From the IMG/VR virus record IMGVR_UViG_3300025096_000064, positions 1 to 35,683 of that record: 35,683 nt of DNA, one strand, 5' to 3'. The notes under the pieces are model-generated. The model ran no database searches, was not told the origin of the DNA, and was given only the letters and a program-made list of their open reading frames with translations. Both the position numbers and the translations under genes were made by a program. Within the stretch, counting starts at the first letter, position 1; every line of letters starts with the position of its first letter. Of the stretch, positions 294 to 33,021 are shown one piece after another. This DNA comes from a virus.

Positions 294-319
294 CAGTGAG
301 TACCGAGGGCGACACCTTA

Positions 320-5742: not shown

Positions 5743-8700
5743 ATGGTCAATAAAGGGGTTAAAATCAGCACGGTTGTCGAGAGCCAGCTGCCATCTTTTG
5801 TAAGAGCATCATATCCTCTTGCCGCAGAGTTTTTAGAGGAATATTACAAGTCGCAAGACTCTCAAAGTCTTCCGGCAAACATTATTAATAACATTGATCA
5901 ATATGTTAAGGTTGACAACCTTACAAACTTAGTTACACAAGCGTCTCTAGGCAGTTCTATTTCGTTTTTCGATACGACGCTTAAGACTGACTCTACAGAG
6001 GGGTTCCCGAGTCAATACGGTATCATACAGATTGACTCTGAGATCATTACATATACTGGTATCACTACAAACTCCTTTACTGGTTGTGTAAGAGGATTTA
6101 GTGGTATCACTTCTTACAGAGCACCTAATAAATCAGACGAACTTATATTTTCTGCCACAGATACTGCAGAACATTCAAGTGGTTCAACAATTAATAACCT
6201 GAGTATTCTGTTTTTACAAGAGTTTTTGAAAAAACTCAAGAGACAGATACTTCCGGGGTTTGAGGATAGAAAATTATATGAAGGATTAGACCAGAGTCTC
6301 TTCCTTAAAGAGGCAGATAGTTTTTATGTCTCTAAAGGTACAGAGCAATCCTATGATATTTTATTTCGTGCTCTCTATGGCAAGGATGTTGAGTTAATTC
6401 GACCTAGCGATTACCTGTTTATTCCATCAGATGCTCGTTATCAACTTGTAAACAACTTAGTTGTTGAAGCAGTTGATGGTAACCCCGAACTCTTGTTTAA
6501 TAAGACTCTTTTTCAGGATGCTGATCAATATAATAAGAGAGCAAGTGGTTCAATCAGTAAAGTTGAGAAGATTGAACGTGGAGAAAAGACATATTACACG
6601 ATTAGTTTAGACTCAGATTACAATAAAGATATTGATGTAGAGGGTGGTTCAATCAGGGGTACATTTGTTGTTAACCCTAAGACCGAATTGCTTAATTCTG
6701 TCTCTATTGGAGCAACTGTTCTTGATGTTGATTCAACCGTTGGATTTGCTGCGACTGGTGAGATTGTTGCAATTTTACATAATGGAACATCCCAGGTTTT
6801 AGAGTACCTTTCTAAGTCAACTAACCAATTCTTCGATGTATCTGGTATAACTCAGGCAATGTCTGATGACCAGGAGTTACGTCAAAACTTCGTTGCTTAT
6901 GGATATACCTCTTCTGCCCAGGCAGACCCCGTACAGGTCCGTATAGGTGCCGTTCTGGAGGAACTGGTAATCCCAGAGGATGTTTACTATACCAATAAGG
7001 GTGATAAGATCCAAATCAAGACTTTAGGTGATTTTGATAAGAGTAAAAAGTCAACAGTTTGGCAATATAACCACAAAACAACATTTACTATTGAAAGTAT
7101 CACCGCGCAATCAGCAGCATTGACTTATGATGTAAAAACTTTTGATGATAATGGAATCTTGCTTGGAGATACTGTAACTCTTACCGACAATACTTCAACT
7201 AGCACAACTTTTACTGTTGACCAAATAAAGACTTCAAACACTTTTGTGGTTTCTGGTTCAACACTGGATCCTTCCAAGTTTTACACTGTAACAAGAAGTC
7301 TGTCTAAGGGTGATTCAACAAATTATCCATATATCTCAAATTTCATCACAAATGTTCAGAATACATATCTGAATAATGATGATGTATATGTTGCGTCAAA
7401 CTCAATTCCATGTTATCCCAATCAATCTCTTGCTCCTGAAAATTATAGCGTTAGTTTCTCTGGTACGTTTAGTGGAGAGAACTTAAACATTGGTTCTCAT
7501 CCATTTATGACTGGAGATGCTGTAAATCTGATTGGCGATGGATTCTCTCGCGCTGCTGGAGTATATTTTGTCAAAGTAGTTGATAATACAACCATCAAAC
7601 TTGCTGTAAGTAGACCAAATATCTCAACAAATAACTTTATTGAGATAAAAGGTTCCTCAGCAAATGCAAGACTGGTTAAATTTGGATATAAGGGAAAATC
7701 CTTACAACCACAGGGTTTATTGAGAAAAATCTCTGATCCAGTTAATGATGGAACGATTGTTGACATCAAATCAACACCAGTAGGTATGTTGGTTAATGGT
7801 GTTGAGGTTGGAAGTTATAAAGGTGAAGATAATGTTTCCTTTGGTAGCATTAATACTGTTGAAGTTATTGCTGAAGGAGATGGATATGATATCATCAACC
7901 CACCTTTACTGAATATTTCTGATAGTGTTGGAAGTGCAGCAACTGGTAGTGTGTCTGTCAAAGGTGGACTTGTAAGAATTGAAGTTATTGACCCAGGTTC
8001 CGATTACTTGGAATTTCCTACAGTTACAATTACTGGAGGTAATGGAACTGGCGCAAAGACAGAGGCAACTCTTGCAGAGTTTATTTACGATGTTACATTT
8101 AACTCAATTGCATCTGCAAACCAAGTTGACTTACCTCTCAACACTATTGCAATTGGTGAACTACACAAATTTAGAGATGGTGAGCATGTATTTTACGAAA
8201 CAAACGGTCTGACACCAATTGGTGGTCTTGAGAGCAACTCTGAGTATTTTATTGGTGTTGTTGACGCATTTAGAGTCAAACTTTATAAAACTCAGACTGA
8301 TGCTGTAACCGGCAAAAATGTAGTTGACCTGACATCATATGGTGTTGGTGGTCATACTCTCAGAACTGTTGACTTTAGAAAGAAAGTCGGTTCTATTAGA
8401 GTTATTGACAGTGGCGAGAACTATGAAAATAAGTTGAGAAAGGTTGCTACAACTGGGATTAACACTGCTAACAACTTAGTCAATATCAGAGACCACGGAT
8501 ATAAGAGTGGAGATATTGTCACTTATGAGACGACTGGAAATGAGATTTTAGGTCTCTCTACTGCTCAGTCTTACTATGTCACTTCTTATGACGATAATCA
8601 ATTCTATCTGTCTGAAGTTGGCATTGGATCAACTACCAGAGCACAATATTACAACGCAGGAGAGTTTATTGATTTAAGGTCTGTGGGTAGTGGAACTCAC

Positions 8701-11700
8701 GAGTTTAACTACGAACCCATTGAGGTTAAAGTTGAGGGTATTGTTGGACTTACAACTGTTACCACAACCAAGAGTATTATTGTTGACTCCAGAACCATCC
8801 GTTCAGGGATTGTTACTGAAATTGCAACTGTAGGACAAACTGACTTTGCTTTCTCATATCCAGCAAGACCAAATAGACCACAACTACTTGATGTCTTTAT
8901 GGATGGCATCAGGTTGAATGATGTTGACTATGATGCTACATCAAGCACTCAGATAGTCCTACAATCGCCCGCAAACGGCACAGAGATAGTAGAGATGGTA
9001 AGTTATGCCTCCTCTGTTAGAACGCAGTACACGGAGGTTACAGCGGGTGCTGGACAAACCAACTATCCATTCATTTATTCGCCAGAAAACCTGGATGTTG
9101 TAGTCAATGGCGTAAAACTGCCACAAAGAGATTATGAGTCCGATACAGGAACAACTGTTATCTTAGATTCAGGAGCAGCTGCTGGAGATTCTGTTGAACT
9201 GATTGGATATCCTGATGTTATTAGAAAGGAGACCACAATTACTGCTCAGCAGGGTCAAACCAAGTTTACGTTCCCACATCAAACTGAGTACAGTCTGATT
9301 GATGTTTACTTGAATGGTACTAAGTTGCCCGTAGAGGATTATGACGCAACAAATCAATCCTTTATTGAACTTAATGAACCAACTATTGCTGGAGATGTTG
9401 TATATCTCTCATTCTTTGTATTAAGTGAATTGATATTCCTTGGTTCGGACTTTAATGCAACAGTACAACCAATCTTTAGGGGAAATATTAAGACGGTTGG
9501 TCTTTCTGATAATGGCAGTGGATATGGTTCCAATTCGATTATCAATTATAACAGACAACCACTGTTTACATTGAATAGTGGTAAATCTGCAGAGGTTATC
9601 CCAATCATTGACCAGAAAACTGGTGGTATTCAAGACGTAGTAATTAAGAATACTGGTTCTGGATACAATGCTCCACCAGACCTTGTAATTGCAGGTGAAG
9701 GTCTTGGTGCAATCTTTACTCCAATTGTTAAGAATGGAGTATTGACTGAAATTATTGTTATTAGTCCTGGGCGTGGATATAATCAATCAAATACGACTGT
9801 AAGAGTTGTTGCTGCTGGACTTGGTGCAAAGTTTGATGCAAATATTAAGACTTGGACTTTAAATGAAGTCCAGAAACTGATTGAAAGAAATAAAATATCT
9901 GCAGATGATGGTGTCTTGTATAATCAAACATCTGGTTCATTGGAGTATACACACTTATATGCCCCAAGAGAACTGAGAAAGCAGGTTTATGGTACTAAGT
10001 TTGTAAATGGTATCGAAACATTCTTACCAGATATTGTATTTAATGCTTCAGGTAAAGAAGTTGATAGTACAAGTCACTCTCCAATTATTGGTTGGGCATA
10101 TGATGGAAATCCAATATATGGTCCATATGGTTTTGATACTCCATCTGGTGGTGTTGTTAGGAGAATGCTTTCTGGTTATACAAAAGATTTAAAAACTGGA
10201 AGACCGCCATTATCTGAGTTCCCATTTGGATTGTTTATTGAGGACTTTACTTTTGATAACTCTGGTGACCTTGATGAGCACAATGGTAGATTTGGTATAA
10301 CTCCAGAGTTTCCAAATGGAACGTATGCTTACTTTATGACAATCTCTGATGATTTTGCTCTGAGTGGTCCATTTAAAAACTTTAAGACTCCAGTGTTCCC
10401 ATATGTTGTGGGACAATCGTTTAAATCATCACCAATCCTCTTTAACTTCCACAGCACATCAAATCAAAGCAATATTGATATTAACTCAAGTGGTTGGTTT
10501 AGAAACACTGACCCATATAAACTTGAGTCAGATTTTGCTGCATATCAATATTTGTTTAATCCAAATAAAGTTAGAAAGCAAACATCAGTTGTAAAATACT
10601 CTCAACCTGGTGGTTTGGATAACATTGACATCTACAATGATGGAAAAGGATTTAAGGTAGGTGACAGCATTAACTTCTCTGGCAGCACTGGTAGAGGTGC
10701 TTTTGGTAAAGTCTCGAGACTGACTGGCAAAACTGTTACAAGTATTGCCAACTCAACAACATATGTTGAAAGTATTGAGTTTGTATCCCTAGACAACACT
10801 GGAAGATTTATCGGTGTTGCACCAGAACCACACGGTTTAAAAAATCTTGATATTGTTTCTGTCACTGGACTATCAACATTTAGAACTGATTTAATAGAAA
10901 ATACTCAAATTAGACTGCCTGATGCCTCATTATCACTGACTGCTGGCATCTCTACTGTGAGTATCACGGGTTTTGTTACACATTTCTCACTTGCAAGTAT
11001 TCCTCAGCATCCATTGATTCTGGAAAATGATATTCTGACCGTTGATGATGAGCAAGTAAAAGTTCTCAACGTTGACCGTAATAAATCTAGTATTCGTGTA
11101 TTAAGAGCACAGAACTCAACTGCTGGTTTCCCACACAGTGTTACCTCACCAATTGCACAAGAATCAAGAAGAGTTCAAGTCTCTACAAACTTTAAAAAGT
11201 CAGATTCATCACGTCTTGATAGAGAACTTTATTTTGAACCAGAGACAACAGTTGGTCTTGGTGCTACTTGGGGCGTAGGTATTACATCAACACTATTCCT
11301 GGGTCAGGTCAATCATCAGTCACCTGTTAGTTTTGAGACCGGAAGTAATACAATTTTACTCTTCCAAAGACCTCAAGATATATCCAACTTTATTGGTGGT
11401 GGTTATGTTTCAATTACAAATCCAACAACATCTGGATTTGCGGTTAATAACGCAAAAGTCCTCTCAGTAGGTTCTACATCTATCACTGTTGACTTTGATA
11501 CTACTACTCTTGTTGGTGGAGGTGTTACTGGATTCCTGAATAGTGTTGTAACTCAAGAGATTCCAACAAGAAGTATCTTTATTGCGGATCATGGATTGAC
11601 AACTGGTGACAGAGTAGTTTATAACTCAAACGGTGGAACATCTCTGACTGTAAAGAGAGATACTGCAGTAAATACAGCACTGACCCAAGACCAAGAACTC

Positions 11701-14700
11701 TTTGTAAAAAGAATTGATAATAATATAATCTCCTTTGCTCAAACAGCATCAGATTTAAATCTGGATAAAGGTATCCTGCAATTTGTTGGTCTTGGAACTG
11801 ATGTATATCACAGTTTTAAAACAGTCAGGTCTGATGTTATTATTGGTCAAATTGAGAAGAATAATGTTACTGTATCCACAGCATCTACACACGGATTATC
11901 TCTAAGAGATATTGTTAACATTGATATTAACGTTGGTATTGCTCAAACATTCAAGGTTGTATATAATGATTTTAATCGTAGAACTCTTATTAACCCTGTA
12001 GAGTTTACTAATAATGATGTAGTTGTTGCCAGAGATACTATCAGACTTGATAGACATGAGTTCCAAAATGGCGAAAAAGTTATCTTTATTGGAACTACTG
12101 GTCAACTTGCAAATGACCAAATTTACTATGTTGTTGTATTTGACAATAATAACATTAGATTGTCTAATACTCATCTTGATGCAACATCATCTTTGCCAAT
12201 CTTTATTAACTTTAGTACAACATTCAGTGGTTCAATTGCACCAGTGAATCCAGAGATCAATTACTATGCTAATCAGAAAGTTATCTTTGACTTATCTGAC
12301 TCATCTCTTTCATATACCTCTCCATCTGGTTCATCCGAGTCGTCATTTAATTTTGAGGTCTATACTGATCATACATTTACAAATCCATACCTGACATCAG
12401 GAGAACTTGGAATATTTGACATAAAGAAGACTGGTGTAGTTGGCATTGATACAAATGCCAAACTGGAACTTGAAACTACATCATCATCTCCCCAGGTGCT
12501 CTTCTATGCACTAACTCCAGTTCCTGGCAGTAGTGGTCCAACTAAGAATACTATCATTCAAGATGATGATAAGATTGTCAATCCAAATTCTTTAATTAGA
12601 CAATCAGCACTTTATGGTGGAGAGCACGTTGTAACATCTATTGCTGCAACATCATTTACATATACTATTGATAATAGACCAAAGTTTGCAGTCCACGATC
12701 CAGAGATATCTATCATATCTTATGATACTGGATCTATCACAGCGATTGGTGGAATCTCATCTATCAGAGTTAACTCTGGTAGTGGTTATATGTCTCTACC
12801 AGAGATCAGCACTATTGTATCTGCTGCAGGAACCGAGGCAATCCTTAATGGCATTAGTACCAGCATTGGTAGAATTAAAACTGCAGATATCCAGGATATT
12901 GGATTCGATTATCCATCCGACAATAGTGTCAGACCTACCGTAAGAATCTCAAATATTCTTGATATCTCGAGATACTTCTCATTCAAAAAAATTGGAATCT
13001 CAAGTGCAGGTGAAGGATACACCAATCCTGCTGATTTGGTTATACTTGATGGTATCACTAATGAAAAAATTGATGAAGTTATTCTCGTTTATGAGTTAGG
13101 AGACACTGAGGTTAGTATTGATGAGAATACAAGAGACCTTTACAATGTAGACCCAATTATCATTCCTACTAATAACTCGAATGGTGTTGGTATCAATACT
13201 ATCACGTACAATACACTAAACAGTGAAGTAACTGCTGTATTGGTTGGTTCTTTTGCAACTGTTGGTGGATTCCCATTTAATGTTGGAGATGAGATTTTTG
13301 TTGAAGGTGCTGCGGTACTTGGAACAAATGTAAAAGGATTTGACTCTAAAGATTATACCTATGCATTCTTTACAGTCACCGATATCGAACCCCAGTATGG
13401 CGGCGTAAATGCTGAAGTTAAGTATAATCTTGGTGACTACCTGAAGAGTGGAGATGTTGTTGGTGCGTTTGACCCAACTAACTCATCGGCAAGGGTGATT
13501 CCTAGAAAGAATATGCCATCCTTCTCTGTTATATTGGAACAAAATGATTTCCTTGATGGAGAAACAATTATAGGTGATAATGGTACTACGGGTGTTGTAG
13601 ATAGATGGGACCCCATTGCAGGTCATTTAAACATTATTAATCCAACTGGACCATTTGTTAGTGGAGAAGACATTGAGGGACAAACATCTGGAACCCATGC
13701 AATCATTGTTAATAATATTGCGTTTGAGAGTTCTTATAATCTTGGATCATCATCTAAAGTTAATCAGGGTTGGAAGAGATTTACTGGTTTTTTAAATAAC
13801 GATCTCTCAAGAGTTGAAGATAGTGATTACTACCAGTACTTCTCTTATGAGTTGAAGTCCCAGGTATCTCTTGAGAATTGGGACGAACCAGTACAAAGTC
13901 TCAATCACCCCGCAGGTTGGAAAAAATTTAGCAACTTGCTAATGGTCAGTAGAGATCTTGCTAATACGGGTATTAGAACTGATCAAGATAACGGAGATGT
14001 CTCATCTGTTGTTGATGTCATCAGTAGAGTTGATACTTATTGCCTGTATGATTGGGATCTTGCATCAGAGAATGATTTGTCTATCAATGGAGTTATTTCA
14101 TCTGATGAGATCATCTTTAATAGTCAACTGATTCAAAACTATTTTGAATCTATTGGCAACAGAGTTCTCAGCATAGATGACATTAGTGATCAGTTTAACA
14201 GTTATCAGAGAGTAGATGAGTTCTCTACAGTTGATACTTATGTTCTCGATGATAGATCCAAAAAATATATTACATACGTTAAAGATAGGCGTTTTACAAA
14301 TGAAAGACAGTTGATGATGGTCACTGTTCTTCAAAATGATATTCAAGGATTCTTGAATCAGTATGGTCGAGTTGAATCTGTGTCTGATCTAGGATCGTTT
14401 GACTTCTCCATTGACAATAGAGAGGGTAACCTTAGATTCTTCCCAATCAAAACCAAAATTAATAACTACGATATTAGTTTGGCATCATACAACAATAATG
14501 ATGTTGTAGCAGGTATTGGCAGCACGATGGTAGGATCTGTTGCTGATGTTTATACATCACAGACTCCCATCATAGCAGGATTTGCAACATTCCCTGTTGT
14601 AAGCATTGCTAAGACGTACAGTGGTGCAAAGATCCTCGTATCAGCATCATCTACAGATAACTTCCACCAATATGATGAAATCACTCTCCTGAGAGACAAA

Positions 14701-17700
14701 GCAAGAGATGTTGCAATCTCGGAGTATGGCAACCTGACTGATCTCAATCTGATTGCCACATCTACTGTGGGACTTGGAACTTATGATGCAACTATACCAA
14801 ACAAGGTTGCGGTAACTATTAATACATCAACGTATGCCAACTTCTCAGGCATTATTACCACAACTGGTGGTAGCGGATCTGGTCCTTTTGGTGGATTTAA
14901 CATTGGAGACCATACTCGCTTTACTGGAGATGGACAAAGACAACTGACTATTGGACCTGTAGACGCAAGAGTATTTGATGATGTCAATGTCTTTGCCATT
15001 GTTGGTAATGATGGCAATGGTGGTGAGGCACCTGAAGTATCAGACGGTATTAGTTTGAGATACAGTATTGATGGTGGATTGAATTATATAAACTCTGGAA
15101 TCATTGTTCCTTACAATGGTGCGGATAGTTTGTCCACTCACACAAAACTCATTCCAGACGCAGCAAAGACCTCATCAACACTGTTTAGATTCCAACAGAA
15201 TGCAAATAGTGGTAATGATTTTGATACTTATGGATTTAAGAATATTAGATTCAATAGTGAGAGAATGATCCTCAATTTCTATCCACACGCAGGCATTGCA
15301 GGAACTGTAAACGCACTGACTGTTGGACTTGGAATCACTGAGGCAACTGGTATTGGGTCAATGACATTCAATACCAACACTGTTGAGACACTCAGAACCA
15401 ACATCTCAGCATCTGCTACTCCATCTGCTACTAGAATTGCTGGATGGTCATCGGATATCTTTAATGGTGGTTATCTGCTTGTCGGCGTAACTGACTCCAC
15501 TAATGATGAGCAAGAGATCTTTGAGTTGATGGCAGTTCAAGATGATCTGGATCAGTTTGTATCTGAGTTTGGCAATGTAATGACCAACTCTGGTCTTGGA
15601 ACAGTTGGTATTGCTTGTACTGATACAACAGTCAAGATCCTCTACACACCAAATGCAAATATTGATGTAGATGTAAAAGTTTATCAGCACTCAATGCGTT
15701 TAGTTGATAACTTCAATGATGACACTGGTATTGGATTTAGCAATGGATCAATCAATAGTGGATTTGGTGATTATGTTGGAACAGAACTTGATATTACTCG
15801 TGCATTTGAGTTGAAGCATAAGACTGAAAATATCTTCCACAGATATTTTGCTCCAACTACTGATCCAAGAGCAGGAGCACCAATTGATAATGGAGTTGTC
15901 AACGTAACTGCAAATTCAATCACTTTGACAGAGCACTTCTTTGTAACTGGTGAGGAAGTTACTTACTCACTGCCTACCTTTGGTGCATTTAGACCGATTG
16001 GAATTGTTACCACAAATATCCCTGGAGTTGGTACAACCGATATTCTCCCAGATAATCTTTATATCATTAAAATTGATAATAAGACTGTTAAGGTTGCTGC
16101 AGCAGCATCTGATGCACTTGCGATTCCATCAAGACCACTTGAGTTCTCATCGACTGGTATTGGTGTATCACATAGACTGGTATCTACAAAACAAAATCAG
16201 AGAGTTGTTGTAGCGATTGATAACATCATTCAATCACCTACCGTAAAAACTACTCCTACAACTACAACCTCTGCAGCTGTAAGTACGTTTGATGATATCA
16301 TCAACTTTAGTGCCATTGATGATTACAAGTCTGGTGATTTGGTGCAGATTGATGATGAGATTATGTTTATTGACACTGTTAATGAGGTAACTAAAAAGGT
16401 TGGAGTAAGAAGGGGTTGGATGGGAACTACCATTACAACTCATACGACAAATGCTGTTATTGAAAAGGTTGTTGGCAATTACAATATCGTTGGCAATACT
16501 GTCAACTTTGTATCTCCTCCTTATGGTAAAGATCCAATCGGAACTTCAACAAATGAACCCGATGACAAATATTGGGTTGGTATTACCACAAGATCAACCT
16601 TTAGTGGAAGATCTTTTATGAAGGGTGGAACTCCAAATGGAGATGTTGACACATATCACGACAATTATGTCTTGAATGATCTCACCCCACAATTTACTGG
16701 AGTTGGAACGGAGTTTACTCTGTCCACTGGAACCGCATCTACACTAACTGGAATCTCCACAAATAATGGTATTATATTGTTAGATGGTTTCTTCCAATCA
16801 CCAACAAGATTTAGTGCTCAATCAATTATACAAAATCAGTATATGGAAGAGACAGTTGGTGTCACCTCAATCTTCTTTAATGGACCACCAACTGGAGGAA
16901 AGATCACATCTATAGGATCTACTTATGGTAATGGGTATCAAGCATTAGTTGCAGCAGGTGGTACAGCAGTTGTAACCGATACAGGCACCATTGGATCGAT
17001 TGCAATCGGTCTTACTGGATCTGGATATAGATCTGGTCTACAGACAGTAAATGTATCTCTTGCAACGTCTACTGTAGGTCTCTCAACTCTGACACCAGTT
17101 GGTATTGCATCAGTCTTGAATGGAAACGTTGTTAGCGTCCAAATCACAAATCCTGGATTTGGATATACATCATCTAATCCACCTGAGGTTGTATTTGATT
17201 CACCATTCTCATATGAGAATCTGGTATTGGATTACGTAAGTGGAACTACTGGTATTGGTACTGGTGCAAGTGTAAGTATTGTTGTTGGACAAGGATCTAG
17301 TGTCATTGATGGCATCATCGTCAACAGTGGTCTTGGTTACACATTTGGAGATCGCCTCACTGTTGCTGTTGGTGGAACAATGGGTGTTCCTCTGAATACC
17401 AGCAAGACATTCAATCAATTTGAGATTAATGTCATTGATACTTACTCTCAGCAGTTTAGTGGATGGACTCTTGGTAATCTGGTAGTCTTTGATAAGATTG
17501 AAGACAAGTTTAATGGATTTGATAGTGAATTCCCTCTCGCAATTGATGGTATAAGACAATCAATTATTGGATTTGACGGTGTTGATCTTGATCAGACTCT
17601 GCTCGTCTTTATTGATAATGTCTTACAGGTTCCTGGTGAGGCATATGAGTTTGCTGGTGGAAGTATTATTGTGTTTACAGAACCACCAAAATCTGATTAC

Positions 17701-18957: not shown

Positions 18958-18964
18958 ATAAATA
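18957..18964 (+). promoter_or_regulatory. Late promoter motif AATAAATA, upstream copy before gp8
   Basis: Fits NATAAATA and overlaps the last base of the giant gene's stop codon. A second motif follows at 18992-18999, so gp8 may have two late starts. Confidence 0.45.
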
Positions 18965-18991
18965 AAAAATAAAAGACCATCACATTTAGTT

Positions 18992-18999
18992 GATAAATA
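18992..18999 (+). promoter_or_regulatory. Late promoter motif GATAAATA upstream of gp8
   Basis: Fits NATAAATA, 22 nt before the gp8 ATG within a 63-nt A/T-rich gap. It would restart late transcription after the 13-kb giant gene. Confidence 0.6.
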
Positions 19000-19020
19000 A
19001 GAAAAAACGTCCCATAGAAA

Positions 19021-20577: not shown

Positions 20578-20586
20578 TAAAGACAG

Positions 20587-23500: not shown

Positions 23501-26500
23501 AGTTTACAACAATTGCCAACCAAAAGAATTTTAGTGTCATTTATACAATTGGTTTTGTAGATGTTTATGTAAACGGCGTCCTCTTTGATTCAACTCTTTA
23601 TACTGCGGTTGATGGACAAACTGTTTCATTTGAGACTGGATTAGAAGCAGGAGATCTTGTAGAGTTTATCTCCTATTCGACTGAGACATTTGATATCAAA
23701 AATTCAAATGTTGTATATCTGCCATCATATGCAGAGATTAGAACAATTAATACTCAGGGAGCATTTACTGTTGTTACTGTTGCTCCAGTTGCAACCATTA
23801 CAGGAATCTGTAATGGTTCCTTGCCAAGTACAACACTCAATGTTCCAAACTTAGACCTTATCTCCGCAAAAACAACAACATCTTCAGATAACACTCTATT
23901 TACAGCAATGCCAAGGAGAAACATCTCTGATGTTAATCTCTCATCATCAAATCTGACAATCAGAAAGCAGTATGATGTTACTGTAACTAACAACTCAACA
24001 AATACAATCTCAGCAGAAACCAACGAAACCTTCCTGCCATTTGACGAGGAAAGATACTCACTGACATTTGTTGATGGTACTATTGAACCACTGACAAGGG
24101 ATATGTTGACCTTTGGTGCTGGTGATACCCGATTGACAATTAATAATGTAAACAAATTTGGTGGAGCAGCACGTCTTGTTACAACTCTGAGAAAGATTAA
24201 CGTTGTATCAAAACAGAAAGAGAATCAAAGATCTAGCAGCATTATTGTTGCGAAATCAACTCAAGTCTCTGCTGGTGTTGGAACAACCACTCTTAATGAT
24301 GGTCTTGCATACGGCAACTATCCATACGGCACTCGTGTTCAGGATGAGGAGATATCATTGAATGTGCCTGATGCACTCTCCTTGCGTGGCGTATTTGAAT
24401 CATACGATACATCTGACCCTAGTGCCCCTCAATTAGTGCTCACGGCGCTTACAGGACCCAATGCGACAACATTAGACCTCATCTTAGGCGAGACTATCAT
24501 TGGAACAGTCAGCAATGCAAGAGGAACCTATGTTGAGAAGAAGAATGACGTCATTGTAGAGTATGTTGCATCCAATAAAAAGTCATTTGCTGTTGGAGAA
24601 AAAATTACATTTGAGGAATCTGGTATTGAAGCAGTCGTTGCTGATATCAATACTGGTAGCAGAGATATTACAGATTCTTATCAATTAGATAATGGTCAGA
24701 GAGATACATTCTATGATTACGCAAGAATCAGACGTATTGTCGGTAAAGATGCTCCAAAGAAGAAGATTAAGGTTTACTTCCAACACGCATTCTATGACTT
24801 AAACGATACTGGTGATATCACAACCGTCAATTCTTACAGTACAATCGATTACTCTAAGCAGGTTCCTTACTACAAGGATCTGAGGAATACGGATATGATT
24901 GATATTCGTCCAAGAGTTTCCACTTATTCACTCACCGAGGGTTCTACCTCACCATTTGAGTTTGCTGGAAGATCCTTCACTCAAGATGGAAACAGTGCTA
25001 AGAATATCCTTGCTCCAGATGAGTCAATCCTACTTGACTATAGTTTCTATCTGCCAAGAATTGACAAGGTTTATGTCAATAAGAATGGAGTATTCAAAGT
25101 TGTAAGTGGAACACCTGCTGAACAACCAGCACCACCAGCAGCAATTGATGACTCAATTGAGGTAGCAGAGATCTTCCTGCCACCATATCTCTATAATACC
25201 GATAATGCTTCTGTCAAACAGAAGAAATATAAGAGATTCACCATGAGTGACATCTCAACTCTTGAAAAGAGAATCAAGACTCTTGAGAAATTTACAAAAC
25301 TGACAGCATTAGAATCTGAGACCTCAAACCTTGTAATCTCAGATAATAATGGTATTAACAAGTTTAAGTCTGGATTTATTGTTGATAGTTTCAAAAACAG
25401 CACTAATCAAGACCTGAGGAACGGAGTCAAAAACTCCATCAATCCAAACAATGGTGAGATTAGACCATCTCATTATACAACAGCAGTTGATCTGGTACTT
25501 GGATCAAGTTCCGTTATTGGACTTGGGCAATCATCTGATCCATATGCAGACTTAAACTTTGCTACTGATCTTAAGGGATCAAACATCAGAAAAACTGGAG
25601 ATGTTGTTACTCTTGATTATACAACTCAAGAGTGGTTGTCACAAAAATTCGCTACCAGAACAGAAAAACTGACTCCATACTTAGTCAACTTCTGGGAGGG
25701 AACGGTTGAATTGAGACCATCCTCTGATGTTTGGGTTGATGAAGTTAATGTTGAACCAGAAAATCTACAGATTGCTGGTGATTATACTGCATCAATCAAA
25801 ACTGTTACTAAAGTGGAACAGTTTGACTCACAAATCGGATTCCTGCCAACAATTTGGAATTCCTGGAACACATTGTGGACTGAAAATTTAGGTCTTCTTG
25901 ATGAGGCAGAAGCAAATTCAGTTTATCCAACATTCTATGGATCTGATACTACACAATCAGGAACCAAAGACTGGATTGGATTGGGTCAAGTTGGCGATGA
26001 AGTTAAATCCATCACATCTGATGTAGAAGCATCTGCTGTGTCCGTAGAGACATCAGAGTTGAGTGTTGGGGACATCATCCCAATGATAAGATCCAGGAAT
26101 GTAGAGTTTGTTTCTAAGAGACTCAAACCAAACAGTCAAATGTATGCGTTTTTCGATGGAGTAGATGTTAATCAGTATATCATTCCAAAACTTATCGAAG
26201 TTGATATGGTTGGTGGAGCATTTATTGTTGGTGAAACAATTAAGGGGTACTTCCCAAGTGTTGACTATAATGTATCACCAAGTGATGTTAATCCTTATAT
26301 TAGTTTTAGAGCAGCAAAATCAAATCATAAAACTGGTTCATATCTGAATCCAGCAACTACATTTGAACAGAATCCATATGAAACAACACTGAATATCCCA
26401 ACAAATTATTCATCTACTTCAACCGTTGTCAACGTAGATATCTTCTCTTTAGCAAATGAACCACAAGGTGAATACTACGGTTTCATTAATCAGGGAATGA

Positions 26501-29289
26501 AACTTTATGGTGAGAGCAGTGGCGCTGAAGCAATTGTTCAAGAAGTCAGACTGATTACTGATGAAACTGGAACAGTTATGGGATCATTCTATATCCCAGA
26601 TGCAAGTATTGACGTTAATCCCAAGTTTACTGCTGGTGATAAGGTATTTAAACTGACAAATAGCGATCTTAACAGCACCTCAACTCAAGTTATTACTAGC
26701 GTCTCTGAGGAAATTTATTCATCTGTTGGGTCTATTCAGTCTGTATATGACGACGTAGCAGCAGTTAAGTTTGCTAGAAAAGTTGACAAGTCACTCTTTA
26801 ATGACTCGGATATCTCAACATTCACTGGCAAGTATCTTGACCCACTCGCACAAACATTTACTGTTGATGATAAGACTGGTGTATATCTCACAAGACTTGA
26901 TATGTTCTTCCAGTCCAAGGACAGTCAGCTGCCTGTAACTTGTCAAATTAGAAGCACTGAGTATCATACTCCATCAGATATCATTCTTCCATTCTCCGAG
27001 GTAACACTTGATAGCAAATGTGTAAATGTGTCCACAGATGCTTCGACTGCAACAAGTTTTATTTTTGAATCTCCAGTATATCTGGAGGGTGGTAAGAAGT
27101 ATGCAATCGTCTTACTCTCAAACTCAAATGAATATCAAATTTGGACATCTAGACTTGGCGAAGTAGATATCAAGACACAATCTGTCGCAACTTCGTCACA
27201 GATTCTTGTATCAACAAAACCAACCATTGGTGCATTGTATAAGTCACAAAATGCTGGTGCTTGGGAACCAAGCATCTTTGATGATATGAAGTTTACTCTG
27301 TATAGAGCAGATTTTGTATCAACTGGAGATATCTCATTCTTTAATCCAAATCTTGCTAGAGGTAATGGACAAGTCCCAGTATTGGTTCAGAATCCTGTAA
27401 TAACCAAATCTAGAAATATTAGACTTGGATTGTCAACTTCAATTGCAAGTAATACTAATCTAATACCAGGAAACACAGTTATTCAACCAACAACTGGTGC
27501 ATCTGGCAATTATATCTCTGCGGTTGGTATTGTATCTGCATTGTCAGTCACCACAGCAGGTATTGGATACACACCATCAACATCAACTCTTACATACAGC
27601 AATATTTCTCTCCAAAATGTAACTGGAGTTGGTAAAAACGCAACTGCAAATGTTGTTGTACAAAACGGTATCGTTGCTGGTATTGAACTTGTCGATGGTG
27701 GATTTGGATATGCAGAAGGTGATGTTGTAACTGCACCTCTGGGTAGTCAAGGTCTTGGTAGTGGATTTAAAGCATCTATTCAAGGAGTTGGAGACTCTAA
27801 CGAGTTAATCTTGGATAACGTCCAAGGAAACTTTGCTCTTGGTATCGCAAATACGTTGTTTGTTTATAATACTGTTGGAGTTGTCACAGCAATCACTGGT
27901 GCTGGAACCAGTCTCCATATCAGTGAACCAATTGATATTGTAACTGATGGTCTTGAGTTTACAATCAATCATAAGAACCACGGTATGCACACACCAACAA
28001 ACTTCGTAAGTATCAATGGAGTCTTGTCAGATGTAGTACCATCGAAGGCAACCACTGGATATAACAAGACATATGATGGTCCAATTGCACTTGATGACGT
28101 TACTGTATATGAAAACTTTGAAGGTGTTGCAATATCTGCTGTTAACCCTGGATATATCTCAATTAATGAAGAAATTATCAAGTATGAAGGTGTAGCGAAC
28201 AGTCAACTCATTGCTGTTACTAGAGCAATTGACGGGTCTATGCCTAAGGCAATTGCTAGTGGAGACATAATCTACAAGTATGAGTTAAATGGTGTATCAC
28301 TGAGAAGAGTTAACAGAACTCATAATCCCAAACCTGGTTCTATTACACTTAACTCTTATGACATTGTTATTGATATGTCAGATACAACTGCTGGTGTCAA
28401 TAGAGGTATAGGAAATAACACTTACAATCCACTTTACTTCAATGAGACTAAGACTGAGGGTGGCAATAACGTTACTGCAACTCAAAATATCCCATACGAA
28501 GCAATCACACCAAACGTCAATCTGTTTGTACCAAATCAGACATCTCTTGATGCGTCGATCAGATCCGTTAGCGGAACTAGCATCAGTGGAAATGAGGTAT
28601 CATTTATTGATAAAGGATTTGAATCAATAGTACTTAATGAAACAAACTATCTCCCAGATCCTAGACTTATCGCATCTAAGATCAATGAAAAACAGATCTT
28701 AAGCACTCTGCCAGGTAACAAGTCTATGACCTTACTGATGAATATGACATCAGATAACCCAAGACTCTCCCCTGTCATTGATACGACCAGAGTTAATATG
28801 ATTACAACATCTAATCGTATTAATAGTGTAGTCACAGATTATGCGGCAGATCCTAGAGTTGATAGTATGTTTGAGGATCCGTCAGATTGTCAGTATGTAA
28901 CTAAGTCAATTAGTTTGAAGAATCCAGCAAATTCTATCAAAGTTTATCTGAACGCACATATCAACAACTACTCTGATTTAAGAGTATTCTACTCAATATC
29001 AAATGAGGACGTTGCAGATCCAATCTTTACACCATTCCCAGGATATGCAAACCTTGATCAAAATGGTCAGGTAATTAATTTGGAGAATAGTGATGGAACA
29101 TCTGATGTAGTTGTTGATAAGAACTACGTGCTTCAGTCTATATCTGATCCAGATAGTTACTCAAATTATGCGTTTACAGCGAACGATCTTGCAGAGTTCA
29201 AATATTTTAGAATCAAGATTGTAATGACATCAACGAATCAGGCATATGTGCCTAAGATCAAGACTATGAGAGCAATTGCTCTAGCGTGA
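20587..29289 (+). CDS. Giant DUF4815-type virion structural protein (2,900 aa)
   Basis: The N-terminal 60 residues (FDPNKNYYKVLFKPGYPVQA, R-E-L-T-T-L-Q-S-I-L, VEQFGNHVFKEGAKVIPG) are the DUF4815 signature found in cyanophage tail proteins. Downstream are 'SGA' modules (97-155, 485-527, 1298-1352, 1968-2025), about six 'DVY-NG-KL' repeats (632-1038), a conserved region with YDYARIRRIVGK near 1377, a short coiled coil (SDISTLEKRIKTLEKF, about 1553-1568), a conserved segment with DPLAQTFTVDDKTGVYLTRL near 2090, two GxGY motifs (about 2323, 2370) and an ID-E-I module (2507-2563). It sits where T4 has gp9 to gp12 and wac, so it probably provides baseplate-to-fibre connections. Exact role unknown. 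Its stop overlaps the next ATG. Confidence 0.85.
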   Translation: MPQETNLNVAPYFDDFDPNKNYYKVLFKPGYPVQARELTTLQSILQNQVEQFGNHVFKEGAKVIPGQTTFNSQYFAVELENSFAGITLSSYASFLVGQTIRGEQSGVRARVEKVLLQSESDKNNTTLYVSYISSNVNNASQAFNSGENLLTEGGIRTSNVIFIENETFATTISDSSTSTGSSFSVEDGVYFLRGTFVNVETQSIILDQYTNTPSYRIGFDVVEEYVTADVDPTLYDNSQGYNNYTAPGADRFKITAVLSKKALSDFEDDNFVEIATIQDGVVRTAPNNSQYNLLNDALASRTYEESGDYYVRPFKLSTLNSLNDNQGNNGVFKVNQLTYEGNTPSDDLALFRLSPGLAYIRGYRVETKAPTFLDVEKPRTTKEYKSQGLNYLTGPSVSLNNVAGTPVLGINTSYTVSLRNSRKAIDKIAAGEEVGLARVYDFALESGSYNATNLDANEWDISLYDIQTYTNITLSQPINVSKSTFVKGKSSGATGFIKDTVTNSKALKLYDTKGSFSAGESFVINGKDDGRIALAITANGLEDVKSIYGFVGAAGTFNADTTLTTKLSLGEATVSLRDLAKNTSVVTLPNLTFANLLKPGNIVSYYNSENFILENSSTKGISTSSVANGQRAFLVYHVPGAEDVYLNGIHLSESEYVSTGSTGIMLNVASYEDDELNVNGFIGGIKDRQEVLAYAGQTVVPFSTTSNLTSSQIANTQLYINGIKIDDSQFSVYSGDEFILLDSPALGNGVQAEFDPYTRGTKVGLTTVTTTVPQTIFASAYAPGNEEVYLNGVKLLKDLEYTAKNGTSVSLNNATSSGDVIEIIENAAGTVTGINTVTAVGLQTGFAGPFVAGKTNVFYNGIKLREGIEYVGSSSSSIYISVGAENGDKVEIIGYGTDRGAGFTTSISENQKIINYDTKNNYVDLFVDGVKYNKTDFSIVQGGTSLEINYPLFVGDLVDTVVFEPGFFTSSKFTTIANQKNFSVIYTIGFVDVYVNGVLFDSTLYTAVDGQTVSFETGLEAGDLVEFISYSTETFDIKNSNVVYLPSYAEIRTINTQGAFTVVTVAPVATITGICNGSLPSTTLNVPNLDLISAKTTTSSDNTLFTAMPRRNISDVNLSSSNLTIRKQYDVTVTNNSTNTISAETNETFLPFDEERYSLTFVDGTIEPLTRDMLTFGAGDTRLTINNVNKFGGAARLVTTLRKINVVSKQKENQRSSSIIVAKSTQVSAGVGTTTLNDGLAYGNYPYGTRVQDEEISLNVPDALSLRGVFESYDTSDPSAPQLVLTALTGPNATTLDLILGETIIGTVSNARGTYVEKKNDVIVEYVASNKKSFAVGEKITFEESGIEAVVADINTGSRDITDSYQLDNGQRDTFYDYARIRRIVGKDAPKKKIKVYFQHAFYDLNDTGDITTVNSYSTIDYSKQVPYYKDLRNTDMIDIRPRVSTYSLTEGSTSPFEFAGRSFTQDGNSAKNILAPDESILLDYSFYLPRIDKVYVNKNGVFKVVSGTPAEQPAPPAAIDDSIEVAEIFLPPYLYNTDNASVKQKKYKRFTMSDISTLEKRIKTLEKFTKLTALESETSNLVISDNNGINKFKSGFIVDSFKNSTNQDLRNGVKNSINPNNGEIRPSHYTTAVDLVLGSSSVIGLGQSSDPYADLNFATDLKGSNIRKTGDVVTLDYTTQEWLSQKFATRTEKLTPYLVNFWEGTVELRPSSDVWVDEVNVEPENLQIAGDYTASIKTVTKVEQFDSQIGFLPTIWNSWNTLWTENLGLLDEAEANSVYPTFYGSDTTQSGTKDWIGLGQVGDEVKSITSDVEASAVSVETSELSVGDIIPMIRSRNVEFVSKRLKPNSQMYAFFDGVDVNQYIIPKLIEVDMVGGAFIVGETIKGYFPSVDYNVSPSDVNPYISFRAAKSNHKTGSYLNPATTFEQNPYETTLNIPTNYSSTSTVVNVDIFSLANEPQGEYYGFINQGMKLYGESSGAEAIVQEVRLITDETGTVMGSFYIPDASIDVNPKFTAGDKVFKLTNSDLNSTSTQVITSVSEEIYSSVGSIQSVYDDVAAVKFARKVDKSLFNDSDISTFTGKYLDPLAQTFTVDDKTGVYLTRLDMFFQSKDSQLPVTCQIRSTEYHTPSDIILPFSEVTLDSKCVNVSTDASTATSFIFESPVYLEGGKKYAIVLLSNSNEYQIWTSRLGEVDIKTQSVATSSQILVSTKPTIGALYKSQNAGAWEPSIFDDMKFTLYRADFVSTGDISFFNPNLARGNGQVPVLVQNPVITKSRNIRLGLSTSIASNTNLIPGNTVIQPTTGASGNYISAVGIVSALSVTTAGIGYTPSTSTLTYSNISLQNVTGVGKNATANVVVQNGIVAGIELVDGGFGYAEGDVVTAPLGSQGLGSGFKASIQGVGDSNELILDNVQGNFALGIANTLFVYNTVGVVTAITGAGTSLHISEPIDIVTDGLEFTINHKNHGMHTPTNFVSINGVLSDVVPSKATTGYNKTYDGPIALDDVTVYENFEGVAISAVNPGYISINEEIIKYEGVANSQLIAVTRAIDGSMPKAIASGDIIYKYELNGVSLRRVNRTHNPKPGSITLNSYDIVIDMSDTTAGVNRGIGNNTYNPLYFNETKTEGGNNVTATQNIPYEAITPNVNLFVPNQTSLDASIRSVSGTSISGNEVSFIDKGFESIVLNETNYLPDPRLIASKINEKQILSTLPGNKSMTLLMNMTSDNPRLSPVIDTTRVNMITTSNRINSVVTDYAADPRVDSMFEDPSDCQYVTKSISLKNPANSIKVYLNAHINNYSDLRVFYSISNEDVADPIFTPFPGYANLDQNGQVINLENSDGTSDVVVDKNYVLQSISDPDSYSNYAFTANDLAEFKYFRIKIVMTSTNQAYVPKIKTMRAIALA
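22480..23700 (+). repeat. About six tandem 'DVY-NG-KL' coding repeats
   Basis: Residues about 632-1038 of the DUF4815 protein carry repeated units centred on EDVYLNGIHL, NTQLYINGIKI, EEVYLNGVKL, TNVFYNGIKL, VDLFVDGVKY and VDVYVNGVLF, each followed by a Tyr or Phe turn, a strand and a G-D-x-V/I-x-x strand. Same unit as residues 1030-1226 of the gp7-like giant. Confidence 0.75.
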
Positions 29290-29519: not shown

Positions 29520-29521
29520 AA

Positions 29522-30382
29522 ATGGGATTAATACACGTACCCTTTGATAGAATCGGATCATCTCAAAGGGTAAATCTAAAAGTCGATCAATATGCTGATA
29601 CCATTTACGGTATAAAGTTAGTAGGTTCTGGAGACACTATTTTTGATGTAAGTGGATATGGTTTTTCAGGTTCTATTAAAAAGTATGCTGGATATGCGTC
29701 CTCAACTGCAGAGGATATTGTAACAGTTGGATTTGATACCTCAAATTCTTCGGCAGGTATCGTAACTGTATTGATAAACTCAGGTATCACAACAAATCTT
29801 GATAAAAATAGTCCCAGATATACCTACGAGGTTGTAGCAACTGAGGGGGCGAGTGGATATAAAAGAAGAATAATGGACGGCAATATTGACATCAATGTTG
29901 GGATCTCACAGGCAGAGACTGGTCCAGAGATGAAATGTATTGCTGTTATTGACGAAGCAAGCAATTTTTCAACAGCAACATTTTATGATAAGTGGGCAAG
30001 TTTTAAAACAAATTGGCCCAACAGATTACATTATCTCCTCCAACCAACCACCTCTGGAATTGTATCCTCCAGTATTGATACCATTCTAAATATTCCATCA
30101 AACTATGATAGTGGATTTGGAACATCACCTCAAGTAAAAGGTGTTGCAAGAGATAATGGAATCTCAACCACATCATCTGATTGGTTTGGATTGGTTGGAT
30201 TAGTAACGGGTACAGATACTGAGGTTGCTCTATTTTTAGATCAATCCGGAAGTATGACACAAGCAACAGTTCAAGCATCTCTTACTAGATTTATTGCATC
30301 TTGTACTGATGCTGGTATTTCCATTAGAACAGAAACTAATGCTGCTGAAGACTGGGTAGAACCATTTACAGGGATACTATAA
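29522..30382 (+). CDS. Virion-associated protein with a VWA-like MIDAS motif (286 aa)
   Basis: The N-terminal part is beta-rich, with RVNLKVDQYADTIYGIKLVG near residues 15-34 and a Gly/Ser-rich middle. Near the C-terminus VALFLDQSGSMTQATVQASL carries D-x-S-x-S (D240, S242, S244), the metal-ion-dependent adhesion site of von Willebrand factor A domains, on a hydrophobic strand and followed by an amphipathic helix. Only 47 residues follow the Asp, so just the first strand, helix and next strand of a normal 170-residue VWA fold could be present. Genes with DxSGSM in this neighbourhood have been annotated vrlC-like in cyanomyoviruses, as far as I recall. It probably belongs to the tail or neck; a role in host contact is inference. 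It overlaps the next ATG by 1 nt. Confidence 0.7.
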   Translation: MGLIHVPFDRIGSSQRVNLKVDQYADTIYGIKLVGSGDTIFDVSGYGFSGSIKKYAGYASSTAEDIVTVGFDTSNSSAGIVTVLINSGITTNLDKNSPRYTYEVVATEGASGYKRRIMDGNIDINVGISQAETGPEMKCIAVIDEASNFSTATFYDKWASFKTNWPNRLHYLLQPTTSGIVSSSIDTILNIPSNYDSGFGTSPQVKGVARDNGISTTSSDWFGLVGLVTGTDTEVALFLDQSGSMTQATVQASLTRFIASCTDAGISIRTETNAAEDWVEPFTGIL

Positions 30383-30768
30383 TGGCATTAATACAATTAA
30401 CCGATAACGAAACAATTACCGAAAGTCTAGTGATACCAAAGGGTATTGACTATCAACAACTCTTTACTATCAGAGAGACAGAATCTAATCTTCCGATAGA
30501 TTTTAGTGGATTCTCATCTCATGTTATGACATCAAAAATCAAACAGTTTCCAGAGTCAGTAGCATTTGCAGCAACATTTACTGCTACATTTTCCGATGCT
30601 GCTAACGGAGTTGTCAAACTGGTTTTGACAGATGTTCAAACTGATGCTATCAAGAGAGGTAGATATTTTTATGATGTTGTGCTTACAATTGAGTCCAAAG
30701 CAGGTGCTGATGATGACTCAGATCTTCAAACCGTAAGATTGGCACAAGGTGGTGTAGTTATAGTCTGA
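30382..30768 (+). CDS. Small beta-rich structural protein (128 aa)
   Basis: The ATG at 30382 shares one base with the preceding TAA (TAATG), implying coupled translation. The protein looks like an all-beta Ig-like domain: strands around residues 10-30 (SLVIPKGIDYQQLFTI), 44-52, 62-72 and 78-86, then the motif RGRYFYDVVLTIE (about 91-103) and a last strand ending QGGVVIV. The G-x-Y-x-Y-D-V core with a final G-x-V-x-V strand is common in phage tail and head decoration proteins. It lies directly before the neck genes. No precise family is recognised. Confidence 0.75.
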   Translation: MALIQLTDNETITESLVIPKGIDYQQLFTIRETESNLPIDFSGFSSHVMTSKIKQFPESVAFAATFTATFSDAANGVVKLVLTDVQTDAIKRGRYFYDVVLTIESKAGADDDSDLQTVRLAQGGVVIV

Positions 30769-30774
30769 TAAATA
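30767..30774 (+). promoter_or_regulatory. Late promoter motif GATAAATA upstream of gp13
   Basis: Fits NATAAATA, overlapping the TGA of the preceding gene and 27 nt before the gp13 ATG. It would start a neck and packaging transcript. Confidence 0.6.
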
Positions 30775-30800
30775 GACATAGAAGAATAAGGAATTATTCA

Positions 30801-31658
30801 ATGGCGCAACCAGGAACAAGAGGAGAACTCATAGGATACGTTAAGAGAAAACTGGGAGCGCCAGTTTTGGAAGTCAACGTATCTGATGATCAGTTCGAGG
30901 ACATCATTGACGATGCCGTACAATATTTTCATGAGCGACACTATGATGGTGTCATTCAAACTTATCTGAAGTATAAGGTATCTCAGGCAGATATTGATAG
31001 GGGCAGAGCACCTAATGATACAACCGAGGGATATGGTAGAGAAACCACAACTTCAACGATTGTTGGCACTGCTGTATCATTTGCTTACGAAGAAAATGCC
31101 AACTATTTACAAATACCAGACTCAGTTATTGGGGTAAATAAAATATTTGCATTTGATGAGTTGACCACTAGTGGTCTTATTGGTGGTGGTATGAATGGTA
31201 TGGGAGGAATGCTGGGTGGATATCTAAACAGTATGTCTGGTTGGGGAGCTCAAGATATTTTGTCATACTATATGTCTAAATCATATACAGAGACTCTCAA
31301 TTACTTATTAAGGACTCATAAGCAGATCAGATATAATAAAAGGCAAGATCGTCTTTATCTTGATATTAATTTTAGTGATCTCTCAGTAGGCGATTATTTG
31401 ATCATTGATTGTTGGAGAATTCTAAATCCTGGTGATGCACCTCAGGTTTGGAATGACTCATTCCTTAAAAAATATGCATCTGCTCTTGCTAAGAAGCAAT
31501 GGGGCATGAACCTGATCAAATTTAATGGTGTAAGACTTCCAGGTGGTGTTGAACTCAATGGAAGACAAATTTATGATGATGGTCAGAGAGAAATTGATGA
31601 CCTGATGACGAAGAGTATGACTTATTATGAGATGCCCCCATTAGATCTGATTGGATGA
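30801..31658 (+). CDS. 13: Neck protein gp13
   Basis: The opening MAQPGTRGELIGYVKRKLGA, then DDQFEDIIDDAVQYFHERHYDG (about residues 29-50), is the standard gp13 pattern. At 285 residues it is close to T4 gp13 (309). gp13 and gp14 form the neck that seals the filled head and gives the docking site for the tail. A Gly/Met-rich loop (GGGMNGMGGMLGGYLNSM, about 129-146) may be a flexible surface segment. Conserved features farther on include LRTHKQIRYNKRQDRLYLDI and the DCWRILNP turn. Its stop lies 1 nt before the preferred start of gp14, again suggesting coupling. Confidence 0.94.
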   Translation: MAQPGTRGELIGYVKRKLGAPVLEVNVSDDQFEDIIDDAVQYFHERHYDGVIQTYLKYKVSQADIDRGRAPNDTTEGYGRETTTSTIVGTAVSFAYEENANYLQIPDSVIGVNKIFAFDELTTSGLIGGGMNGMGGMLGGYLNSMSGWGAQDILSYYMSKSYTETLNYLLRTHKQIRYNKRQDRLYLDINFSDLSVGDYLIIDCWRILNPGDAPQVWNDSFLKKYASALAKKQWGMNLIKFNGVRLPGGVELNGRQIYDDGQREIDDLMTKSMTYYEMPPLDLIG

Positions 31659-31659
31659 T

Positions 31660-33021
31660 ATGCTTAATCCATTTTTCACTCAGGGCACCGCTTCTGAGCA
31701 AAATTTAGTCCAGAGTTTAATTAGTGAGCAACTCCGTATGTACGGGGTTGAAGTTTATTATCTTCCTAGAAGATATATGACGACTAATACTGTCATTAAG
31801 GAAGTCATTCAATCAGACTTTAAAGACGCATATCCCATTGAAGCATATGTCAATACATATGATGGATTTGAGGGGCAGGGAACTATCTTATCAAAATTTG
31901 GAGTAACTCCAATTGATGATTTGACTCTTATTATTTCTAGAGAAAGATTTGAAAATTATATTACACCATTATCAAAAAGCATTCCAAACGTAAGACTTGC
32001 AACTCGTCCCAAAGAGGGAGACTTGATTTACTTCCCACTGGGAGATAGACTTTTTGAGATTAAGTTTGTAGAGCACGAGCAACCATTTTATCAACTCCAA
32101 AAGACTTATGTTTATGAGTTGAGATGTGAACTCTTCCGTTATGAGGATGAGGTAATTGATACAAATGTTGAGCAAATTGACGATAATATTGAGAGAGCAG
32201 GATACATTCAAGTCCTCAATTTGGTTGGCATTGGTTCTACAGCAGCTGCTGAAACAACTATTGTCAATGGAGGTTTCCAGTTTGTCACATTGATCGATGA
32301 TGGATTTAACTATGTGGAGTCAACACCAACAGTAGCAATCTCATCAGCACCATCTGGTGGAACAAATGCTAGTGTTATATCATTTACAAATGCTGGATTT
32401 GGTATCAGTGAGGTAGCAATTCTCAATCCTGGTAGAGGTTACACAACAGCACCAGGTATCTCCTTTATCAGTACAACTGGTTCTGGAGCGATTGCGACAA
32501 CTGGTATCGGGACCGTTGGCACTATTGGTATTGTGACTGTTACCAGTGGCGGTTCTGGATATACAACTGCTCCAGGTATTGCATTCTCTGGCGCACCAGG
32601 AGGAGGAACCACAGCAGCAGGTTATGCTCTGCTCACTGATGATTATATCTCCGCAGTTTATATCACTAATGCTGGTGCAGGATATACTCAAATTCCAGGT
32701 ATCACAGTTGCAGCACCAACAACTCTCGGAAGAGGCAACTACAAATATAATGAGGTTGTCACTGGATCTCAGTCTGGCAATACCGCTAGAGTCAAGAGGT
32801 GGAATGGAACTGATAAGACTCTTGAGGTCAGTATCATTACTGGCAGCTTTACTCCAGGTGAAGCAATCAGAGGTTCTGAATCTGGTGCCGTCTACTCATA
32901 TAGAAGTGTACAAGATGACCAAATGAATCCTATTGATCAATTTGCAGAAAATATCATTATCGAATCCGAAGCAGATGGTCTTCTAGACTTTACTAGAAAG
33001 AATCCTTTCGGAGAACCATAA
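31660..33021 (+). CDS. 14: Neck protein gp14 with repeat-module insertion (453 aa)
   Basis: I choose ATG 31660, giving MLNPFFTQGTASEQNLVQSL, the usual gp14 start in cyanophages, over the TTG at 31651 inside gp13. Residues 1-185 are gp14-like (YGVEVYYLPRRYMTTNTVIK, DTYDGFEGQ-type turn, strand-rich middle), and gp14 joins gp13 in the T4 neck. T4 gp14 has 256 residues; the excess here is a block of four GxGY modules (near 213, 257, 297, 338, for example NPGRGYTTAP and NAGAGYTQIP) followed by an 'SGA' module (about 362-416). The last 35 residues (DDQMNPIDQFAENIIIESEA) resume gp14-type sequence, so the modules are inserted rather than appended. Confidence 0.92.
   Translation: MLNPFFTQGTASEQNLVQSLISEQLRMYGVEVYYLPRRYMTTNTVIKEVIQSDFKDAYPIEAYVNTYDGFEGQGTILSKFGVTPIDDLTLIISRERFENYITPLSKSIPNVRLATRPKEGDLIYFPLGDRLFEIKFVEHEQPFYQLQKTYVYELRCELFRYEDEVIDTNVEQIDDNIERAGYIQVLNLVGIGSTAAAETTIVNGGFQFVTLIDDGFNYVESTPTVAISSAPSGGTNASVISFTNAGFGISEVAILNPGRGYTTAPGISFISTTGSGAIATTGIGTVGTIGIVTVTSGGSGYTTAPGIAFSGAPGGGTTAAGYALLTDDYISAVYITNAGAGYTQIPGITVAAPTTLGRGNYKYNEVVTGSQSGNTARVKRWNGTDKTLEVSIITGSFTPGEAIRGSESGAVYSYRSVQDDQMNPIDQFAENIIIESEADGLLDFTRKNPFGEP
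32290..32910 (+). repeat. GxGY and SGA module block inserted in gp14
   Basis: Four GxGY-type units and one G-E-x-I-x-G-x-x-S-G-A unit sit between gp14-like flanks. The units follow the pattern (N/S)-x-G-x-G-Y-T-x-x-P, strand, Gly-rich loop with Ala/Thr, strand, and match units in both giants and gp8. Confidence 0.75.

Follow-up and report, generated by a model that had tools for sequence, protein, structure and literature searches.

The 35,683-base IMG/VR virus record IMGVR_UViG_3300025096_000064 (hereafter the window, i.e., the whole stretch of DNA analyzed) has the protein content of a marine T4-like phage, and four of its virion proteins carry copies of one short repeated segment, the GxGY unit. 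The protein set comprises gp6, a gp7-like giant of 4404 residues, gp8, a DUF4815 protein of 2900 residues, gp13, and gp14, and the closest cultured relatives seen are P-TIM68 and Bellamy. The unit-bearing proteins are the giant (5743–18957), gp8 (19021–20577), the DUF4815 protein (20587–29289), and gp14 (31651–33021). Three of them scored above the cut-offs of their Pfam families, gp8 with 58.9 bits against PF09215 (cut-off 25), the DUF4815 protein with 212 bits against PF16075 (cut-off 30), and gp14 residues 3–181 with 110 bits against the T4 gp14 neck family PF11649 (cut-off 25). The DUF4815 protein also matches ORF65, the DUF4815 protein in the phi812 baseplate entries (3e-40), and the neck gene order fits gp14, with gp13 (PHROG 211) directly upstream. 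The listed TTG start of gp14 (31651–31662) is probably upstream of the true start, as the relatives start near the ATG at 31660.

The GxGY unit spans ~43 residues with three beta strands, in the order strand, GxGY loop, strand, Gly-rich loop, strand. Judged against composition-matched shuffles, the bare GxGY motif occurred 13 times in the giant (shuffle mean 1.5, maximum 7), three times in gp14 (mean 0.28), and twice each in the DUF4815 protein (mean 0.67) and gp8 (mean 0.19). In gp8 and the DUF4815 protein these counts lie within chance, so the bare motif was not accepted as evidence there, and the case for both proteins rests on profiles. To avoid circularity, a profile was trained only on gp14 relatives, with reversed and shuffled sequences as decoys. 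It detected ten units in the giant at an independent E-value (iE) <0.3, five of them at <1e-4 and the best at 3.6e-12, while the best decoy of all reversed and shuffled sequences reached an iE of 0.14. Whole gp14 used as query likewise matched the giant at 18142–18399 (40% identity, 7e-13), and the gp14 repeat region matched PHROG families of gp7-like, gp8, and fibre proteins. The gp14-only profile gave no match in the window's own gp8 or DUF4815 protein, and it matched 31 of 59 gp8 relatives. In profile–profile comparisons, the gp14 units matched the gp8 units at 95% (E 3.5e-8), with the cores of the same proteins as controls at <0.2%; the DUF4815 units, a related GxGYxxGD subtype, matched those of gp8 at 85% and those of gp14 at 73% (controls <0.4%). 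The units of gp14, the giant, and gp8 are shown by these comparisons to be homologous. The proposal of the preliminary description that a single GxGY family runs through four virion proteins is thus borne out, by the gp14-only profile, the gp14/gp8 profile–profile match, and the GxGYxxGD subtype for the DUF4815 protein; its strict form (N/S)xGxGYxxxP fits some units, while others deviate from it.

The open-licence literature yielded no account of the family as one shared by the neck protein gp14, gp8, the giant, and the DUF4815 protein. Exchange of beta domains among virion proteins of differing function is known in general (PMC10684548), as are extra domains on sheath proteins (PMC9230969); the present family is alike in its general sharing of beta domains and differs in linking these four proteins. 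A scan for cellular copies, made on close relatives only, returned one contig filed as a gammaproteobacterial metagenome-assembled genome, which looks like a misbinned phage, judging from the phage gp13, gp14, and DUF4815 genes it bears. One Sylvanvirus row, a possible giant-virus occurrence, was also seen.

In the giant, the units form six groups, which like all unit and barrel segments described below lie on the plus strand. Residues 701–776 (7843–8070) hold a pair, 712 GDGY and 752 GSDY (gp14-only profile iE 2.5e-3 and 1e-7), and residues 1245–1365 (9475–9837) hold three units at 1258, 1305, and 1343, recognized by motif, with profile iE of 8.7e-6 for the second and 1.4e-3 for the third. 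A single unit of the GxG[YF]xxGD subtype (GKGFKVGD, ~1633) lies in residues 1621–1669 (10603–10749; blind gp14 profile iE 5.5e-3). Two units at 2346 and 2423 in residues 2336–2436 (12748–13050) were recognized by motif and weak profile matches (iE 0.02 and 0.1), and three at 3759, 3805, and 3863 lie in residues 3745–3902 (16975–17448), where the profile matched 3793–3835 at iE 1.2e-6 and the others are supported by motif. The pair at 4161 and 4202 in residues 4149–4226 (18187–18420) is the nearest to gp14 (gp14-only profile iE 3.6e-12 and 2.9e-10). Compared with the preliminary description, the giant has additional units near 1633 (GKGF) and 929 (GENY), and gp8, credited with one unit, has two in tandem (221 and 264). 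GGGY at giant residue 1885 is not a unit.

Other features were seen in the giant. A YHYH domain (PF14240, E 1.8e-23) occupies residues 1437–1538 (10051–10356), and Reelin subrepeat B (PF21471, E 1.3e-6, barely above the cut-off) matches residues 3055–3168 (14905–15246). A second repeat type, D-V-x-x-N-G-x-x-L...D-Y, seems by eye to be common to the giant (residues ~1080–1230; 8980–9432) and the DUF4815 protein (~640–1030; 22504–23676); these regions contain or adjoin short DNA repeats at 8829, 9048, and 22668.

In gp14, the units interrupt a small beta barrel, and their array follows the conserved neck core and precedes the C-terminal NPFG region. The AlphaFold2 model (98 sequences), with a predicted local distance difference test score of 93–98 across most of residues 190–420, together with VIA, builds this barrel from residues near 184–201 and 363–422. 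In detail, residues 184–204 (32200–32262) form its first part, residues 206–365 (32266–32745) hold the four inserted units (profile iE 6e-11 to 1e-13; AlphaFold2), the first of them degenerate (GFNY), and residues 366–420 (32746–32910; NEVVTGSQSG...FTPGEAIRGSESGA) form the remainder. In VIA, gp14 184..412 gave a split match to 8rk3_b 492–559 (Z 6.4, root-mean-square deviation (rmsd) 2.0, 61 aligned), and the barrel matched eIF2-gamma domain III with Z about 5.6. T4 gp14 is alike in the core, residues 3–181, and lacks both the barrel and the array; its stretch corresponding to the array, residues 178–256, shows disorder when the neck is isolated and touches gp15 in the assembled virion (PMC12270204).

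The copy number of the gp14 units varies among phages. By alignment, T4, HTVC008M, S-E7, and S-CRM01 have none, S-RIM2, S-RIM14, and S-H9-1 have two, the window, P-TIM68, and Bellamy have four, and S-8S53 has about nine by eye, of which the profile found seven. In S-E7-type gp14 the barrel is uninterrupted, in the window class the array lies in the beta1–beta2 loop of the barrel (QVLNLVG / NYKYNEVVTG), and in S-RIM2, S-RIM14, S-H9-1, and their relatives it lies in the beta2–beta3 loop (GDFTVGEEIVG / AEVKSW). These placements were made with a long-gap pairwise aligner, as hmmalign could not place the long insert; they are unequivocal for sequences in which both flanks are aligned, and ambiguous for many of those with four units. 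Two sites in one gp14 barrel point to two or more insertions, or to a relocation. In a set of 66 non-redundant gp14 proteins with four units, identity was 42–49% for units at the same position and 28–35% for those at different positions, with 32% between gp14 and giant units. On these identities, the gp14 array is one that was assembled before the four-unit phages diverged and has been inherited since, and the same comparison gave no sign of present-day movement of units.

Gp8 carries two tandem units in residues 211–291 (19651–19893; 221 GVGL and 264 GSGY), supported by alignment, profile–profile comparison, the AlphaFold2 model, and VIA; both are visible in sequence and as repeated strands in the model. 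The first is degenerate in the window phage, where its tyrosine is lost, and its S-RIM2 equivalent is GSGY; GDGY at gp8 residue 162 is not a unit. The scaffold agrees with T4 gp8 (PF09215; 1n7z) at Z 20.2 over 273 aligned residues, while the pair is absent from T4 gp8; the gp8-like proteins of A511 and phi812 (6hhk, 9euj) differ, having only ~172 residues. Since the pair was found at one place in 76 of 76 marine relatives aligned, with Y267 invariant, and also in pf16 and phiM12, and is missing in T4 gp8, it is either an ancient insertion that became fixed or one that T4 has lost. A second stretch without T4 gp8 counterpart, residues 358–484 (20092–20472; VIA), is of the small barrel type also found in gp14, and its VIA rows include eIF2-gamma domain III and JBD30 8rk3_b (Z 3.7–4.3). 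Both gp14 and gp8 thus have a small barrel with rows like eIF2-gamma domain III, which may be a second domain type that they share.

In the DUF4815 protein, the unit pair (2325 and 2372) lies in residues 2308–2410 (27508–27816), as supported by the GxGYxxGD profile and by alignment with empty sites. The DUF4815 proteins of HTVC008M and Melnitz are without the entire insert that holds the pair, and that of S-RIM2 (L005 15086–22297) has another beta module ('GDTVTGATSGATAEVV') in its place. Empty insertion sites are thereby shown, in alignment, for relatives of both gp14 and the DUF4815 protein. The claim that scaffolds of separate ancestry carry the same insert therefore holds, with a homologous module and clean empty sites in two of the proteins. 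The suggested comparison of insertion points with insert-free relatives succeeded for gp14, with empty sites in T4, S-E7, S-CRM01, and HTVC008M, while the gp8 pair is absent in T4 and fixed in the marine relatives. The word 'mobile' in turn applies to deep time only, because gp14 units 1–4 are orthologous across phages, and all 76 marine relatives aligned have the gp8 pair at one place.

A candidate relative of known role is domain I of the T4 tail-sheath protein gp18 (residues 98–188; PF22639; 3foa, 3fo8). This domain, a six-stranded beta barrel with a helix, projects outwards from the sheath without contributing to contacts between subunits; it attaches to the baseplate and keeps hold of the long tail fibres in their retracted state (PMC3004832). 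The gp8 model at 213–291 matched T4 gp18 99–185 (3foa) with Z 5.3, rmsd 2.8, 72 aligned residues, and 14% identity, where Z <8 can reflect a common arrangement. The alignment starts in a register that places GVGL (221) on T4 GSNY, and the G-x-x-Y loop after the first strand, GSNY in T4 and GxGY or GVGL in the units, has the same register in both. Among 17 phage records and the window, the externally made Pfam profile PF22639 (Gp18_dom_I) matched eight marine records at E 0.001–0.12, six of them <0.01 and all below its curated cut-off of 27 bits. All five of the matches checked (P-TIM68, ACG-2014f, S-RIM2, Bellamy, and HTVC008M) fall on independently found units, and the giant pair at 4149–4226 scored E 0.048; among the controls, 2 of 14 genomes also gave matches at E up to 1. 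Further, the GxGYxxGD units matched the gp18 domain I alignment at 92% (E 6e-7), with controls <0.4%. Like gp18 domain I, the units are inserted in a virion-scaffold loop and are absent in relatives, as seen from the empty sites of gp14 and the DUF4815 protein. The two are alike in the G-x-x-Y loop in register and the sub-threshold Pfam matches on units, and may be alike in an inserted barrel of ~90 residues and six strands; they differ in that the T4 domain has an alpha helix and is a single copy on the sheath, while here tandem copies lie in neck and baseplate proteins. Mutations G106S, S175F, and A178V of T4 gp18 block fibre retraction (PMC3004832). The numbering in that paper omits the Met, with which S175 and A178 agree, and G106 is therefore the glycine that opens GSNY and corresponds in position to GxGY.

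Several results weigh against this relationship. The PF22639 cut-off was reached by none outside T4 (137.6 bits), the best marine match being 16.7 bits (E 0.001 per genome), and the scan of the window as a genome reported no match, so the units do not attain formal PF22639 membership. The pattern used to select the GxGYxxGD subset is one that T4 gp18 fits as well, and when these units were searched against the PDB without such bias, gp18 ranked only at E 2.5–4. The Z of 5.3 is in a range where unrelated folds score too. Gp18 was not listed in the gp8-pair profile search, nor in the VIA rows of the gp14 model, the latter not being evidence of a different fold. Many unit clusters show one detectable unit instead of a pair, so pairing as a rule is not confirmed, and the basis for a docking role outside the sheath is analogy. 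Direct profile comparison to gp18 domain I gave no link, with 1.4% for the gp8 pair and 0.6% for the gp14 array; the link appeared only via PF22639, the GxGYxxGD subset, and the gp8 structural match. Taken together, the units are likely to be remotely related to gp18 domain I, which is supported and not proven.

The reading preferred here, to which an even chance is given, is that the units are ancient inserted barrels of the gp18 domain I kind that serve as docking surfaces. Two units would probably close into one six-stranded beta barrel of ~90 residues, as the strand order indicates. Such barrels, remotely related to T4 gp18 domain I, would long ago have entered loops of the neck protein gp14 (at more than one site), the baseplate proteins gp8 and DUF4815, and the gp7-like giant, with vertical inheritance thereafter. 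By analogy with T4, they may offer surfaces along the particle on which fibres or other peripheral virion proteins dock; this role of units in non-sheath proteins is a best guess. From strand order and the T4 precedent, we infer one barrel per two units, surface exposure, and the docking function.

It is possible, if on the unlikely side, that the units are passive structural bulk that widens or cements the neck and baseplate or stabilizes the particle with no specific partner. The range of gp14 copy number from 0 to about 9 fits such bulk, and extra domains on sheath proteins are regarded as dispensable, perhaps with a stabilizing effect (PMC9230969). However, each gp14 position is conserved across phages above the between-position level, and 76 of 76 relatives have the gp8 pair at the same site, which suggests a specific constraint. 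Binding of host polysaccharide, as proposed in the preliminary description, or of capsular polysaccharide by the units is doubtful and less probable still. Inserted beta domains of phage virions are often proposed as weak carbohydrate binders (PMC9230969), and the hints here are sub-threshold: one giant unit region, residues 1615–1700, resembles the bacteriophage endosialidase beta-barrel domain (End_beta_barrel, PF12195) at 19.2 bits (E 0.0012), short of the cut-off of 35 bits, and endosialidase 4hiz is among the weak PDB matches (E 1.4). In contrast, none of the carbohydrate-binding families was matched above its cut-off, the neck position of gp14 is not the site of first contact between particle and cell, and T4 gp18 domain I, the closest relative with an established role, is a dock for fibres and the baseplate (PMC3004832). 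Convergence, in which each protein evolved its Gly/Thr-rich beta repeats independently and the likeness is superficial, would suit units that are short and compositionally biased, but is highly improbable and already disfavoured, as the composition-matched shuffles and reversed sequences fail to score (best decoy iE 0.14 vs. 3.6e-12) and the profile–profile controls with cores of the same proteins remain <0.6%.

Elsewhere in the window, a 286-residue protein (29522–30382) contains 'FLDQSGSMT', which by eye resembles the von Willebrand A metal-binding motif. Two direct repeats lie near the left end, one at 513–594 and 835–916 (82 nt, 95%) and one at 598–665 and 1122–1189 (68 nt, 79%). The former has a hairpin and a T run, after which comes a TATAAT-like stretch; the repeats may represent duplication of a small gene together with its control region.

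The docking reading of the GxGY units bears on the giant, gp8, gp14, and DUF4815 proteins, which make up most of the window, belong to abundant marine phages, and are functionally unassigned over much of their length. Insertion at two loops of one gp14 domain represents ancient domain shuffling in a core head-closure protein. As a tentative and rather unlikely extension, the barrel may be a general docking part, in which one ancestral barrel gave rise to T4 sheath domain I and to the copies in marine neck and baseplate proteins, forming a fibre-docking ladder from neck to baseplate. The likely link of these repeated segments to a domain of solved structure, together with a T4 mutation in the motif, gives them a testable role, that is, the docking of fibres or peripheral proteins.

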